This document shows positions 1 through 50,809 of a stretch of DNA of 61,572 bases, piece after piece. A model generated the notes under the pieces. That model saw only the letters and a list, made by a program, of their open reading frames with translations. It was not told the DNA's origin and did not search any database. The DNA lies in NCBI RefSeq assembly GCF_002843175.1, contig NZ_PJEO01000040.1, positions 1 to 61,572 of the forward strand. Reading direction: 5' to 3'. The stretch is from Confluentibacter flavum (GTDB taxonomy: Bacteria > Bacteroidota > Bacteroidia > Flavobacteriales > Flavobacteriaceae). The translations under genes were made by a program, and so were the position numbers. How positions within the stretch are numbered: position 1 is the stretch's first letter; each line of letters starts with the position of its first letter.

Positions 1-591
1 GAATGAGTCCTTTTGTGTTTTTAGCATGATATAAAGCTTTGTTAAGGGCCCTCACGCATCCGTTTAGTTCCAGGCTATCACTAAGGTCATAACCAACAAT
101 CTTTCTTGAATACATATCAGTTATTAACGCCAGGTAACAAAATCCTTTTACCGTTCTGATATAGGTTATGTCAGAGGCCCACACTTGGTTAGGTCTTGTA
201 ACCTCAATATCTTTAATGATGTTTTTATACTTATAGAACCTGTGCAAAGAGTTAGTTGTTCTAGAGCTATATTTCTTTCTAAGTGTTAGCATTTGATGTT
301 TTCTAAGGACGTTAAACAAAGTATCCCTGCCGACTTTAAGGTTGGCTTTGGTAAACTCATCATCTAAGGATTTAACAAGTTTACGCACGCCTTCCCTTGG
401 AAGGGACTTGCGTCTTTTCTTAACTATCCCAATAATCTGCTGTTCTAGTTTTAAACGCTTATCAGCTCTATTTTTATACTTATAGTAAGCATTGCGTTTA
501 TGTCCAAAAAATTGGTTATAGTAGTTAAAGAAGCAAATCCCTTACCTTTTTCTTTGGCTTTGATCAAGGCTTTATACTTAGCTTTTTTTTT
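1..591 (-). pseudogene. IS3-family transposase OrfB (integrase core), partial and probably frameshifted
   Basis: The minus-strand reading below base 511 gives a typical IS3 OrfB: a basic N-terminal region, then WASDITYI and ALITDMYSRKIVGYD, which carry the first two acidic residues of the DDE triad. The window ends before the glutamate. In IS3 elements OrfB is reached by a -1 slip from OrfA. A run of nine A on the coding strand at 583-591 is a suitable slippery site. After that slip the frame reads FASLTTITNF and then goes out of register at a run of six T (506-511). One extra T would join it to FGHKRNAYYKYKN. I infer a one-base deletion, or a homopolymer sequencing error. Confidence 0.6.
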
Positions 592-935
592 AGTTCAGCC
601 ACAGATTTGTAGCCCAGGTCTTCTGCTGCGACTTCCAAGTATGAATCCAGTACCAATGCATCCAAATCCTTTTTTAGGAGTAGCTTTTTAAGCTGTCCGA
701 TCTCTTTTTGCAGTTCCTTGATTCGTGTTATCTCGTCTTTTGTTTCCACTTTTACCCTTGTGTTCATTAGGTTCTTACGGTTGTACTTCCTGATCCATTC
801 GTTAATGGTGGTAGGCGCAATGCCATAAAGTTTGCCTAGTTGGTTTTTGTTAAGTTTTCCAGTTGTGATTTCGTCCAGAATTTTCAGTTTAAAAGGTTCC
901 GAATACCGTCTGATTACTTTGTCATTTTTGTACAT
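564..935 (-). CDS. IS3-family transposase OrfA (helix-turn-helix protein)
   Basis: A 123-residue protein starting MYKNDKVIRRYSEPFKLKIL. Residues about 10-55 form the HTH_Tnp_1 type helix-turn-helix (KNQLGKLYGIAPTTINEWIRKY), which binds the terminal repeats of the element. Residues about 68-95 form a leucine/lysine-rich coiled coil (ITRIKELQKEIGQLKKLLLK) used for multimerisation. It ends at a stop just past an A9 slippery run, where a -1 frameshift would give the OrfAB transposase. Length and layout are normal for the family. It is expected to be weakly expressed from a promoter inside the terminal region. Confidence 0.88.
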   Translation of the reverse strand: MYKNDKVIRRYSEPFKLKILDEITTGKLNKNQLGKLYGIAPTTINEWIRKYNRKNLMNTRVKVETKDEITRIKELQKEIGQLKKLLLKKDLDALVLDSYLEVAAEDLGYKSVAELKKKLSIKP

Positions 936-1224: not shown

Positions 1225-2475
1225 TTAAGTGCGCTCTAGCTGTTTTTTAATCTTTTCAATGGCTGTTTCAATAGATTTTTCTGGTTCAATAATATTGTAT
1301 TCGCCCCAAAACGCGGGATCGGAAAAGCCAGAAACCTGCTCTGTTAAAATAGTGGAGGGGAATAACATGCTATTGTTTTTAACCAATTTAGTGTCCATAA
1401 TTTTCCAATCGGTTACCGCCATTTCACTACTTAAAGTGTAAACACTATTAAAGAGTTTTCCTTGCCAATTTACTTTAAATGTTAGCAAAATATTACTGTA
1501 GGCATAATGCCATTTACCATTTTGGGTTCTGTAATTAACCCTATATGTGGCTTCGGTGGGATACACCTCTGCTTTCCTTGGTTTTTTGCGCACGTACATC
1601 TCGCTAGCTAATTTTTTATTCTCTACATTTAAACTGTATACGGCACTTTTAAGTGCTAAATTTTCCGCATCTATATAAAGTTTTCCATAATATAGAGGGG
1701 TTTCTATCCCCGGATTTTGTTCGAAATTTACAACGTAAACAAGGGCATTATCTATTTGAGTAGATTCGCCAAAACTAAATCTATAATAATCAAGGTTTTC
1801 AACGTCAAATATATACTCAGGATATTTAATAATATCAATATATAAATTGCTGAATGGGCCTCCTTGCAATTTCATGGCTAGGGTGTCTAGCCTTGAATAA
1901 TCGGTTTTCTTCCTTGCTTTTATAAGCTCTATATTATCATTTCTTGAGTTTTTATAGGGTTGTTTGTGTATTTGAACAACAGCCTCAGATAAGGAAGCGT
2001 TTTTTTTTCTTTTCTTGATGGTTTCCCTGTAAAAAGCAGTCATTAACATGTTGTCATCATTGTACAACGTATTCTTTTTGCTTAGTGTTTCCATAACCAA
2101 GGCTTTGGCATTTTTGAATTTAGATGCAATTTTTATTTCATCTAATTGAATTATTGAGGGTTCTAGATAAATTTTTTCATCATTAGAAATTTCAGAAATC
2201 CTAAGTTCTATTTTTTGGTAACCCAAGTGACTGATGGTTATAGTGCCTTCTAAAAGATGATTGGGTATTTTTAGTGAAAATTCACCGTCTGTATTTGTAA
2301 CGGTGCTAATGTTCGAGCCATTAATAACCAAATCGGCAAACACCAATTTGTCTTTGCTTTTTTGATCAATGACGGTGCCATTTATCTCTTTAAATGAAGA
2401 AATATCTTGGGCATATACAAGAGAGCAATTTATAAGAAGGATACAGACTGCTCTAAAAAAAACATCTCTTTTCAT
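1225..2475 (-). CDS. Exported carboxypeptidase-like regulatory domain protein
   Basis: A 416-residue protein with a signal peptide (residues 1-22, ending VYAQD). Residues about 30-115 form a CarboxypepD_reg-like beta-sandwich: INGTVIDQKSKDKLVFADL, then TNTDGEFSLKIP and ISHLGYQKI. The remaining 300 residues are beta-rich and resemble the region that follows this domain in DUF5686-type envelope proteins of Bacteroidota. No TonB plug or barrel is evident. The likely location is the periplasm or outer membrane, and the exact role is unknown. The start is supported by the signal peptide and by the 96-bp leader repeat that ends exactly at this ATG. It stands alone on the minus strand. Confidence 0.8.
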   Translation of the reverse strand: MKRDVFFRAVCILLINCSLVYAQDISSFKEINGTVIDQKSKDKLVFADLVINGSNISTVTNTDGEFSLKIPNHLLEGTITISHLGYQKIELRISEISNDEKIYLEPSIIQLDEIKIASKFKNAKALVMETLSKKNTLYNDDNMLMTAFYRETIKKRKKNASLSEAVVQIHKQPYKNSRNDNIELIKARKKTDYSRLDTLAMKLQGGPFSNLYIDIIKYPEYIFDVENLDYYRFSFGESTQIDNALVYVVNFEQNPGIETPLYYGKLYIDAENLALKSAVYSLNVENKKLASEMYVRKKPRKAEVYPTEATYRVNYRTQNGKWHYAYSNILLTFKVNWQGKLFNSVYTLSSEMAVTDWKIMDTKLVKNNSMLFPSTILTEQVSGFSDPAFWGEYNIIEPEKSIETAIEKIKKQLERT

Positions 2476-2571
2476 ATGTAGATAATTATTAGTTTTTTAA
2501 AGGTCATATGTTATCGCCTTATTTTCATTGATGTTTGTTTGCAACAAACTTGTTATTAATGGCGATTTCAA
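2476..2571 (-). repeat. 96-bp leader repeat, unit A (proximal)
   Basis: On the minus strand this unit starts TTGAAATCGCC and ends ...TACAT directly before the ATG at 2475. It is 96 nt long. By hand alignment it is about 80% identical, without gaps, to unit C upstream of mnmA. From position 1 it encodes a short frame (TTG start, KSPLITSLLQTN..., stop after 24 codons). ATCGCC near the start can pair with GGCGAT in the middle of the unit. It may be a leader-peptide or RNA regulatory element, or a dispersed repeat. Confidence 0.75.
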
Positions 2572-2667
2572 ATGTGTGTATTTATTGTTTTTTAAATGTC
2601 ATATGGTATAGCCTTCTTTTTCATTGGTGTTTTTGAATGAAAAATTTTTTGTTGATGGCGATTTCAT
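2572..2667 (-). repeat. 96-bp leader repeat, unit B (distal)
   Basis: This unit lies directly upstream of unit A in tandem on the minus strand and is also exactly 96 nt. It starts ATGAAATCGCC and ends ACACAT, immediately before the TTGAAATCGCC of unit A. It is more diverged, with GGCTAT in place of GGCGAT and small compensating indels. Its short frame begins MKSPSTKNFSFKN and stops after 22 codons. It looks like a decayed duplicate of the unit next to the gene. Confidence 0.7.
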
Positions 2668-16892: not shown

Positions 16893-16988
16893 ATGAAATC
16901 GCCACTAACAACAAGTTTTTTGCAAAATAACACCCACAAAAATAAGGCGATACCATATGGCCTTAAAAAAAACAATAGATAGTTACAT
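16893..16988 (+). repeat. 96-bp leader repeat, unit C, ending at the mnmA start codon
   Basis: The unit starts ATGAAATCGCC at 16893 and ends GTTACAT directly before the mnmA ATGAAACG. It is 96 nt, the same length as units A and B at 2.5 kb. Its frame reads MKSPLTTSFLQNN... for 29 codons, then TAG, then six bases to mnmA, in the same frame. A leader peptide with translational coupling is one reading. A dispersed DNA repeat is the other. Confidence 0.75.
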
Positions 16989-18176
16989 ATGAAACGTGTT
17001 ATAGTAGGACTTTCGGGAGGTGTGGATTCTAGCGTTGCTGCCTTTTTATTAAAGGAGCAAGGTTATGAAGTGATTGGCTTGTTTATGAAAAACTGGCACG
17101 ATGATTCCGTTACCATTTCAAATGAATGTCCTTGGCTAGATGATAGCAACGATGCCATGTTGGTTGCGGATAAATTAGGAATTCCTTTTCAAACCATTGA
17201 TTTAAGTGAGCAATACAAAGAACGTATTGTTGATTATATGTTTAATGAGTATGAAAAAGGAAGAACTCCCAATCCAGATGTGCTTTGCAATAGGGAAATA
17301 AAATTTGATGTCTTTATGAAAATAGCCATGGAACTTGGAGCCGATTATGTGGCTACGGGTCATTATTGCAGAAAAGGCACCATTCAAAAAGATGGTAAAG
17401 ACATTTATCAATTGTTAGAAGGTGTTGACGATAATAAAGATCAATCCTATTTTTTATGCCAATTATCACAAGAACAATTAGCAAAATCATTGTTTCCGAT
17501 AGGTGAGTTAACAAAACCGCAAGTACGGGAGATTGCCACCAAATTGGATTTGGTAACAGCAGAGAAAAAAGATTCCCAAGGACTTTGTTTTATAGGTAAA
17601 GTTAAGTTGCCGGATTTTTTACAACAACAACTCAAACCAAAAGAAGGTATTATTGTTGAAGTTCCGAAAGAAAACATCATTTATAGCAAAAGCACACCGA
17701 CGTTTGATTCTAAGCAAGAGGAACTTCGATATTTAACCCAAAAAATTGATTATCATCTTGAAGATGGTACCATTGTTGGAAAACACCAAGGAGCGCATTA
17801 TTTTACAAAAGGGCAACGCAAAGGGTTGGCCGTTGGAGGTACAGCAGAACCTTTATTTGTTATTGAAACCAATGTGGATACGAATGTGATTTACACAGGA
17901 CAAGGTAAAGAACACCCCGGATTATATAAGAAAGCCTTATTTGTAACTAATGAAGAGTTGCATTGGATTCGTGAGGATTTAGCACTCAAAATAGATGACA
18001 CCATGCAAGTCATGGCTAGAATCCGTTACCGTCAACCATTACAAAAATCAACTTTATACAAAGTTGATAGAGGTTTGTATGTGGAGTTCGAACAACCACA
18101 ATCTGCCATAACAGAAGGGCAGTTCGTTGCTTGGTATTTAGATGAAGAGTTAGTAGGTTCTGGAGTAATTTCGTAA
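16989..18176 (+). CDS. mnmA: tRNA 2-thiouridylase MnmA
   Basis: A 395-residue enzyme that thiolates U34 of tRNA-Lys, -Glu and -Gln. The PP-loop [10 protein letters not shown] sits at about residues 8-17. Catalytic cysteines are C100 ([10 protein letters not shown]) and C200 (SQGLCFIGK). The tRNA-binding and beta-barrel domains follow, with [11 protein letters not shown] at about 275. The sequence after SGGVDSSVA includes [10 protein letters not shown], the usual variant in Bacteroidota. The start at 16989 sits exactly at the end of the 96-bp leader repeat. A subtilase gene follows after 26 bases. Confidence 0.95.
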
Positions 18177-49858: not shown

Positions 49859-49966
49859 CCTCTTGTTTGAAATTTATGAAATGAGCGTCGTTAGGTTATG
49901 GTAATAAAACTTTAATTTAATTAAGCACATTACATCTGACAGATAAAAAGCAAAGAATACAAACAG

Positions 49967-50809
49967 ATGAAGCATTTTCTTTATATAGTAATATTACTTT
50001 CAGTTTTAAGCTCTTGTAGCGAATATCAAAAGGCCTTAAAATCTGAAGATATTGCTGAAAAGTTTAAACTGGGTGATTCTCTTTATAGCCAAGGTAAATA
50101 CGAAAAGGCAAACAAACTTTTTGCACAAATTGTTCCAAGTTACAGAGGAAAACCTCAAGCGGAAAAATTGATGTACTTGTATTCCAATACATTTTACAAA
50201 ATGAAAGATTATCATACATCTGCTTATCAATTTGAACGTTTTGCATCTAGCTATCCTGCTAGTGAGAAAGTTGCAGAAGCTGCCTTTTTAAGTGCAAAAA
50301 GTTATTATATGTTATCTCCAGAATATGCGAAAGATCAAACGGAGACAAAAGATGCCATTGAAAAATTACAAAATTTCCTTAATTTATATCCTGAATCTGA
50401 ATATTCAGCAGAAGCAAACAAACTTTTTAGGGAACTAGATTACAAATTAGAGAAAAAAGCATATGAAATTGCCAAGCAATATGCATTGATTGCGCCTGGA
50501 TATACAAAGGATTTTAATGCCGCCATAAAATCTTTCGATAATTTTATTTTTGAGTTTCCAGGTTCTGTATTAAGAGAAGATGCCTTGTTTTATAAATTTG
50601 ATGCCGCTTACCAACAAGCCATGAATAGTGTGGAGAATAAAGTTGTTTCAAATATGATTGTTCCTTTAAGGAAGAACCGTTTGGCACAAGCAAAAGAGTA
50701 TTATACAACGTTTAAAAAAAGCTATGGAAATTCAAAATATATAGCTGAAGCCGATAAAATGGCAGTTACATTAGAAGAGGAATTAAAAAATTACAGCAAT
50801 AAAAGTTAA
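49967..50809 (+). CDS. bamD: Outer membrane assembly lipoprotein BamD
   Basis: A 280-residue lipoprotein of the BAM complex that inserts beta-barrel proteins into the outer membrane. The signal peptide ends SVLSSCSEY with the lipobox cysteine at about residue 17. Five TPR-like helix pairs follow: YSQGKYEKANKLFAQIVPSY, YHTSAYQFERFASSYPASEK, EKLQNFLNLYPESEYSAEAN, and two more. The length is normal. It is followed by rpoZ after 11 bases, as in other flavobacteria. Confidence 0.93.
   Translation: MKHFLYIVILLSVLSSCSEYQKALKSEDIAEKFKLGDSLYSQGKYEKANKLFAQIVPSYRGKPQAEKLMYLYSNTFYKMKDYHTSAYQFERFASSYPASEKVAEAAFLSAKSYYMLSPEYAKDQTETKDAIEKLQNFLNLYPESEYSAEANKLFRELDYKLEKKAYEIAKQYALIAPGYTKDFNAAIKSFDNFIFEFPGSVLREDALFYKFDAAYQQAMNSVENKVVSNMIVPLRKNRLAQAKEYYTTFKKSYGNSKYIAEADKMAVTLEEELKNYSNKS

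Follow-up and report, generated by a model that had tools for sequence, protein, structure and literature searches.

Directly upstream of a 416-aa gene in the window (by which we mean the whole stretch of 61,572 nucleotides of Confluentibacter flavum DNA that was analysed), two similar units of 96 nt follow each other on the minus strand, and the second one ends exactly where the gene begins. What these units are, and how they came to sit so precisely on a start codon, is the question addressed here; an earlier note made from the letters of the window had offered a leader-peptide regulator, an RNA element, or a repeat that spreads by duplication around start codons as possible answers. The comparisons described below make it very probable that the two units are head-to-tail copies of a small mobile element without any protein of its own, about 85-96 nt in length, that occurs in many Flavobacteriales.

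Unit A, the 3' copy (2476..2571, minus strand), scores 110.3 bits with covariance model R1, which was built from 19 copies of the repeat, and 91.8 bits with model R2, built from 72 copies. Unit B, the 5' copy (2572..2667, minus strand), scores 83.4 bits with R1 and is absent from the R2 match list, where the match on unit A overlaps unit B by five bases. Read towards the gene, unit B (2667 to 2572) opens with ATGAAATCGCC and unit A (2571 to 2476) with TTGAAATCGCC, its first ATG position reading TTG. The matches of both models on unit A extend through an ATGAA (2471..2475, minus strand) that is at once the 3' end of the repeat and the start codon, and thereby the insertion site, of the 416-aa gene (1225..2475, minus strand; an ORF with a match to the CarbopepD_reg_2 domain). 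The coordinates and junctions that the earlier note had given for the two units, with unit A directly abutting the ATGAAA start at 2475, are correct. Its further argument was that a whole number of 32 codons and an exact junction are not expected of chance similarity. The similarity does go far beyond chance, given that 77 of 99 aligned columns are identical in units A and B and that this score was reached by none of 2,000 single-base shuffles. The length carries no such weight: The alignment requires three gap columns in each unit, so that the equal 96 nt are a coincidence, and unit lengths vary across the family, being commonest at 89-91 nt among 186 distinct copies. Two more copies lie on the plus strand of the window, one (16893..16993; 100.2 bits with R1 and 82.0 bits with R2) whose terminal ATGAA opens a presumably MnmA-like 395-aa ORF at 16989, the other (49876..49971; 65.4 bits with R2; TGAGC subfamily) whose terminal ATGAA opens a 280-aa ORF (49967-50809). 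The window also contains an insertion sequence remnant at positions 1-935 (minus strand), whose 123-aa ORF (564-935) matches HTH_Tnp_1.

A search of flavobacterial genomes, as the earlier note had proposed, revealed dispersed copies in the genome of origin, in its congeners, and elsewhere in the Flavobacteriales. With the unit pair as query, blastn returned 45 matches at E ≤ 1 in the own 4.14-Mb genome (G000), and model R1 gave at least 50 matches at E ≤ 1 and at least 40 at E ≤ 0.01; in four congeners, it found at least 20, 19, 13, and 14 copies, respectively, at E ≤ 0.01, with scoring confined to 150 candidates in each genome. With model R2, copies were found at E ≤ 1e-5 in 11 out of 41 genomes from the same bacterial family, the own one included, and, under strict filters and with 14 scored candidates for each genome, in at least 15 of 296 genomes drawn from across the phylum (E ≤ 1e-6), 12 of them from the same bacterial family (again including the own genome) and three from the same order. 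An exact pattern of the 3' end matched at least 116 stretches, and the 80 of these that were listed all come from Bacteroidota (Flavobacterium, Chryseobacterium, Lutibacter, Arenibacter, Bizionia, Flavivirga, Salegentibacter, and others, with one Pedobacter). In 74 of 80 named loci taken from these stretches, R2 found a total of 83 matches. Six exact matches to the 5' end in G000 that lie outside elements appear by eye to be coding coincidences. Plasmid and phage sequences contained no match to unit A, and no title describing such a repeat was found in the open-licence literature.

Copies are not always solitary or evenly spread. Three tandem units with a spacing of about 90 nt were seen in L223 and L231 (G017:C18, 43-317), and in the single 4.1-Mb contig of G228 (C1), the copies are spread unevenly, as the stretch from 3.0 to 4.0 Mb holds 11 of the 14 listed. 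The element copies of L058, L107, L109, and L123 have a different small repeat (GCTTCGCC..GTTCGCTATCGCTCG, in either orientation) nested within them, and the same insertion of roughly 50 nt occupies the same position inside the elements of L064 and L096, in front of different downstream genes, as if a cargo-bearing element had itself been copied.

Whether the repeat had arrived at these sites can be read from relatives that lack it. We took 59 orthologous regions upstream of 18 own-genome loci from the congeners and aligned them; the flanks of L060, L069, and L107 were not alignable. At 10 of the 18 loci, including the window gene, the leader of the relatives continues straight into the start codon and the repeat is absent. 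In two congeners, the window gene is preceded by neither unit, and its junction reads ...GAT|ATGAAAAGAG; taken singly, G001 has ...GAT|ATGAAAAGAGATG and G002 has ...AAATT|ATGAAAAGAGATG, which is the same junction with the last base or two differing, while G000 reads ...GAT|ATGAAATCGCC, then the two units, then ATGAAAAGAGATG. The flank in G003 has diverged and holds no copy, and the regions from all three relatives (L155-L157) contain ATGAA once and no copy of the repeat. The other clean empty sites are those of L043, L049, L051, L058, L061, L063, L065, L097, and L103, where in the last case G001 carries a copy and the other three relatives have none at the start. Over all 59 regions, R2 found six copies at E < 0.05 (L161, L172, L173, L194, L207, and L213) and five weaker ones at E 0.2-0.52, and in the 33 empty regions of the ten clean loci, it found no match at E ≤ 1 in 32, the exception (L208, E 0.3) lying away from the start.

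Some loci record more than one event. At L053, two relatives carry an older copy that the model recognises (L172 and L173), a third relative has one that is visible only by eye (L174, no model match), and in G000 a further copy stands between this old copy and the gene, so that new copies can evidently insert next to the gene. Among the relatives of L047, one has a decayed copy (L161), one a doubtful copy (L162, E 0.2), and two have no copy and start with GTG or TTG. At L070 (G000:C53), which precedes an ORF that we take to be IleRS-like, the relatives (L199-L202) start with ATGAGCGC, ATGAGCGC, ATGAACGC, and ATGAGTGC before AAATTTCC, one of them with ATGAA, and G000 has two stacked elements and the gene start ATGAAATTTCC, so that here the start codon has moved. 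The older of the two elements has, by eye, a different helix 1 of 10 bp. An ATGAA start is found in 21 of the 33 empty orthologues from the ten clean loci, the share being 0/4 at L058, 0/4 at L097, and 1/3 at L063. ATGAA is found at both ends of the element and once in most empty sites, which may reflect a target duplication, but it may also be borne by the element at L058 and L097, where the absence of ATGAA from all relatives implies that the element may sometimes supply the AA; as second codons drift, the ancestral start may still have been ATGAA.

A recent episode of movement is preserved in G010, a genome from another genus of the same bacterial family. Here, 25 copies share 92-100% identity, with 11 of them identical over 96 nt (among the 40 of 53 matches that were scored), and their flanks are unrelated on both sides right up to the ATGAA; no longer, split, or gene-carrying version appeared among these 40 of 53 scored blastn matches. 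For 12 G010 loci, the homologous start in three congeners of G010 carries ATGAA in 28 of 33 orthologues; on inspection, two of the remaining ones have it as well, and three, all of L239, do not. R2 found no copy in 26 of the 28 ATGAA-bearing orthologues and none in 31 of all 33, the two exceptions being relatives of L233 (L279 and L293) that carry another copy. Precise empty sites and near-identical copies in unrelated flanks together show that the repeat moves and leaves ATGAA at both ends. The element inserts at ATGAA, usually at the ATGAA of a gene start, after which the gene keeps its start codon and about 90 nt have been added between the old leader and the ORF, and further copies can stack at the same site. 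The idea of a repeat that spreads by duplication around start codons was therefore right in substance, in view of the empty sites and the burst of identical copies at ATGAA starts.

How strictly the copies keep to start codons was scored by hand for 51 own-genome copies (the 50 of the R1 search and one further), with exceptions inspected singly; counting by hand was appropriate since cmsearch, in removing overlaps, drops the upstream members of the tandems in the window and in C19. Neither random distances and phases relative to start codons nor a lack of copies elsewhere, which the earlier note had named as findings that would speak against it, was seen: The 3' end of the repeat coincides with the start codon of a gene in 42 of the 51 copies, scored with a covariance model that favours a terminal ATGAA and requires no ORF. 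In 38 of these 42, the ATG opens at least 58 codons, and the other four comprise one GTG start, one 38-aa ORF (presumably ribosomal protein L36-like), and two copies that hold a nested insertion and open the gene with their true 3' end. The remainder of the 51 consists of three upstream tandem members, five copies in sense 10-61 nt upstream of a start, and one ambiguous copy. The downstream genes of the own genome include, as we assume from their likeness, IleRS and Fmt. Congeners show a similar picture, with 56 of 65 copies at starts, five at most 100 nt upstream, one running off a contig end, and three elsewhere; two orthologous copies (L122 and L136) appear by eye to lie antisense to the 3' end of a convergent gene, and another (L143:1501-1769) stands immediately upstream of a SAM riboswitch ahead of an ORF that we take to be metH-like. 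Three of the 83 matches in the named loci were set aside (one cut, two off the locus end); of the 80 that could be scored, two of them from congeners, 66 stand at a start, and six further copies are, by eye, followed by another unit.

Two observations concern individual genes. In L068 (G000) and L119 (G001), the element ends at a conserved 8-codon ORF, MK(F/V)RFYFN, and a 446-aa ORF follows about 60 nt further downstream. Furthermore, elements of different subfamilies stand at the same gene in different genera, once at a presumably sugar-isomerase-like gene (L061 in G000 and L233 in G010) and once at a presumably ArgG-like one (L145 in G003 and L252 in G010), which suggests repeated insertion at favoured genes.

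The recent copies of G010 were examined for the same bias. Of its 25 near-identical copies, 24 were inspected, and 17 of these are at starts and 7 are not, the latter including L243 between convergent genes and L255 in antisense. No inspected copy lies, in our judgement, inside a gene, with L260 arguable; an ORF across the joined L260 site and a 61-aa ORF across the L255 site were taken as spurious. Of the ATGAA sites in the window, 25 belong to the first 30 codons of a predicted ORF and are in its frame, 233 fall in other parts of genes, and 26 are intergenic. The start share of 17/24 is a modest excess over the 25/51 of tolerated sites, that is, start and intergenic ones (binomial p = 0.026, Fisher p = 0.062), the baseline being derived from the window and not from G010, with every in-frame ATGAA among the first 30 codons of a predicted ORF treated as a start. 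Since the excess is modest, the strong start bias of the older collections can come largely from survival, and we do not claim start-codon targeting as such.

Two helices were read on MAFFT alignments made without structure and compared with 500 shuffles and a sliding control. Helix 1 is formed by AUCGCC and GGCGAU in the subfamily of the window (2561..2566 and 2513..2518 in unit A, minus strand, letters checked) and elsewhere by AUCACC/GGUGAU, ACACCC/GGGUGU, ACAUCC/GGAUGU, AUGCCC/GGGCAU, or AUGAGC/GCGAAU, the last with a tandem G.A. Helix 2 pairs CAUnUG with CAn'AUG, in which AUG is the start codon and n/n' is A-U, C-G, or G-C; in unit A, CAUAUG at 2505..2510 (minus strand) pairs with CAUAUG at 2478-2473 (feature 2473..2478, minus strand, covariation, letters checked), made up of the CAU of the repeat and the AUG start codon. 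In the 72 aligned copies, 92.4% of cells are paired against 78.9% after shuffling, with 86 double-change cells against 22.7 and a covariation score of 0.315 against 0.109. For a second set of 62 copies, all from named genomes of other genera, the respective values are 88.6% against 75.8%, 107 against 37.3, and 0.318 against 0.122, and all three measures were reached by 0 of 500 shuffles in both sets. The second set comprises 62 of the 83 named-locus matches; rows that had long inserts, were cut, or came from Confluentibacter were left out, along with a few more. Its search pattern holds neither strand of helix 1, so that helix 1 was not preselected there, the copies still being delimited with the model. 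Two other measures, which are the least inflated by relatedness, did not go beyond shuffling, as the number of pairs with double changes was equalled or exceeded by 14 and 298 of 500 shuffles in the 72-copy and 62-copy sets, respectively, and that of further pair types by 234 and 213. The sliding control, in which relatedness is kept, gave 7-51% paired cells against the 92.4% and 19-45% against the 88.6%. Single copies fold weakly, with z values from -0.6 to -4.2 in six of them and -1.8 and -2.1 for the window units. By three of the five measures, the two helices are shown to be conserved by covariation, the 3' strand of helix 2 including the start codon, and they could equally form in single-stranded DNA.

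The earlier note had proposed to weigh covariation against conservation of codons, and the answer is divided in that two helices covary and no reading frame is conserved. A leader peptide or attenuator, for which the short frame beginning (M/L)KSP would be translated and regulate the gene, draws on the openings of both window units, and we give it almost no credence. Unit length leaves remainders of 0, 1, and 2 on division by three in 66, 69, and 51 of the 186 distinct copies (p = 0.22) and hence ignores the reading frame; the first ORF runs for 2-34 codons in the 165 copies in which it reaches a stop, only two codons in 48 of them, and another 17 copies have no start codon and four no stop. 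With neither frame nor length conserved across the family, we rejected the leader peptide. The suggested RNA element fares better as far as the two covarying helices go, but the same pairs are possible in single-stranded DNA, Rfam had no match in the window at the gathering threshold (a weak PreQ1 match lay far below it), and in nine further loci its only match was the separate SAM riboswitch of L143. An RNA leader of regulatory function, riboswitch-like or bound by a protein, that was inherited vertically and lost in relatives would explain the covariation and the fact that the same gene can keep a copy in several species, as one presumably encoding an Fmt-like protein does in four of five Confluentibacter genomes and in Mariniflexile. 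It would leave unexplained the eleven identical copies in unrelated flanks, the precise empty sites, the lack of a common pathway among downstream genes (by eye), and the repeat's lack of an Rfam match; the identical copies of G010 together with the ATGAA at orthologous starts strongly disfavour it as the origin, so that we regard it as very improbable, a regulatory RNA leader being possible as a later role of individual copies.

In our view, the units by far most likely represent a mobile element of the non-autonomous kind, with ATGAA as its target and start codons as the places where it survives. Its target would be the ATGAA pentamer at the level of DNA, used by a trans-acting enzyme on a folded single strand or through the 5-nt core; copies inside genes would be purged, those at start codons would persist since the start is preserved and an A-rich initiation region comes with the element, and some copies may later have been retained as translation-tuning leaders. 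No mobilising enzyme was identified, and the element has neither an ORF nor terminal inverted repeats, its ends ATGAA-ACATCC and AACAC-ATGAA not being inverted copies of each other as those of a DDE-type MITE would be. A Y1 (HUH) transposase might mobilise the element in trans, in the way proposed for REPs and for miniature elements derived from IS200/IS605, with ATGAA as left target and right cleavage site and the CAU motifs as guides, which we consider a serious if minority possibility. It would fit the fixed short target, the foldable single strand, and the lack of terminal inverted repeats, and CAT is found at positions 11-13 in 40 of 72 aligned copies. G000 and G010 are moreover the two genomes with 13 Y1 matches each, and Y1 occurs in 19 of 24 genomes with the element against 12 of 31 without (p = 0.0056; G123-G125 left out, "without" meaning no match under the search filters), an association that may reflect only transposon load. 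Yet the Y1 elements examined have ends of their own, namely left flanks ending in ATT or GC-rich hairpins, and at 20 Y1 loci from G000, G010, G042, and G023 these ends differ from the repeat. In 24 loci, 23 of them around Y1 (G000, G010, G042, G123, and G023, several cut by contig ends), the sole confident copy was in L317, which had been chosen around a G010 copy, and three more loci (L453-L455) had no repeat match below E 0.3. Five genomes (G001, G002, G009, G025, and G324) carry the element and yet lack a Y1 match at the threshold of E ≤ 1e-5, genomes free of the element can have Y1 too, and the 11 clustered copies among the 14 listed in G228 split 5 to 6 by strand of the contig, counted without reference to an origin, with no sign of the lagging-strand bias that movement as single-stranded DNA would bring. 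Given their own ends and the lack of a confident copy beside the loci examined, Y1 transposases were rejected as the parent element.

Targeting could instead act on RNA, with element RNA entering mRNAs at AUGAA and being copied back, or with insertion coupled to translation initiation; start codons would then be selected as targets and not simply be where copies survive. This is in line with the 50 of 51 own-genome copies that are in sense at a start, at most 61 nt upstream of one, or the upstream half of a tandem, with the pairing of the helix 2 CAU with the AUG start, and with a start share in G010 that exceeds the window baseline. The recent intergenic copies of G010 (L243 between convergent genes and the antisense L255) argue against it, as do the congener copies L122 and L136 with their apparent antisense position (by eye) at the 3' end of a convergent gene, and we think it unlikely. 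A bolder version of the mobile-element reading, which we hold to be rather doubtful, has the elements homing to start codons through an internal CAU(n)UG guide and copying themselves in as portable initiation leaders; dozens of unrelated genes, probably including essential ones, would in this way have had their initiation regions rewritten throughout an order that largely lacks Shine-Dalgarno sequences.

A gene should normally suffer when DNA is inserted at its start codon; in this single genome, some 42 genes have absorbed such an insertion. For annotation, this means that start codons in these genomes can move, as seen at L070 with its presumably IleRS-like gene. The element would be a mobile translation-initiation region, and sister-species pairs with and without it make an effect on expression directly testable. 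The mRNAs of this phylum are naturally devoid of Shine-Dalgarno sequences, and in Flavobacterium johnsoniae, A is over-represented at positions -14 to -11, A at -12, -13, and -3 is favourable to translation, and genes that are translated well show less pairing near the start (PMC6847099). In the element, the loop of helix 2 is rich in A, position -3 is C, and the AUG is paired, so that it is not simply an optimal initiator, and a damping or tunable leader is conceivable.

Among known systems, the REP/RAYT pairs come close in that REPs are short, foldable, dispersed repeats without genes for which mobilisation in trans by an HUH enzyme has been hypothesised (PMC3733652, PMC8266576). REPs are described there as palindromes of 20-40 bp, most of them tagged with GTAG or CGTC and found mainly downstream of coding regions (PMC3733652, PMC8266576), whereas the present element has about 90 nt, two helices, and ATGAA at both ends, and sits on start codons; moreover, no Y1 locus examined was flanked by a confident copy. 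With IS200/IS605-type elements such as IS608 it shares a fixed short target; IS608 identifies its target through base pairing, and the choice of target can be re-programmed (PMC5934647). The present element differs from them by carrying no transposase gene, by ends unlike those of the Y1 elements in the same genomes, and by helix sequences that vary among subfamilies with pairing kept. The IS200/IS605 family is not known to have terminal inverted repeats, and a fixed short target without such repeats is also what we find (ATGAA at 28 of 33 orthologous starts for the G010 loci and 21 of 33 for the clean G000 loci). As the defining features of REP/RAYT and IS608-type systems are only partly present, we file the element under neither. 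The TAACTGA heptamer repeats of Beggiatoaceae, Cyanobacteria, and some Bacteroidetes likewise lie close upstream of the start codons of unrelated genes, presumably essential ones included (PMC4679880), but they are a 7-nt tandem motif of other sequence, reported with no evident transfer mechanism, and the abstract mentions neither empty sites nor a two-helix fold (PMC4679880). IStrons, which combine a group I intron with an insertion sequence, resemble the element in a design that makes insertion harmless (PMC4227781), yet they splice out of the RNA, whereas the present element remains part of the leader and preserves the start codon. What is new here, as far as the open-licence literature shows, is the landing site of a small non-autonomous mobile repeat, together with the fact that this site is left usable.
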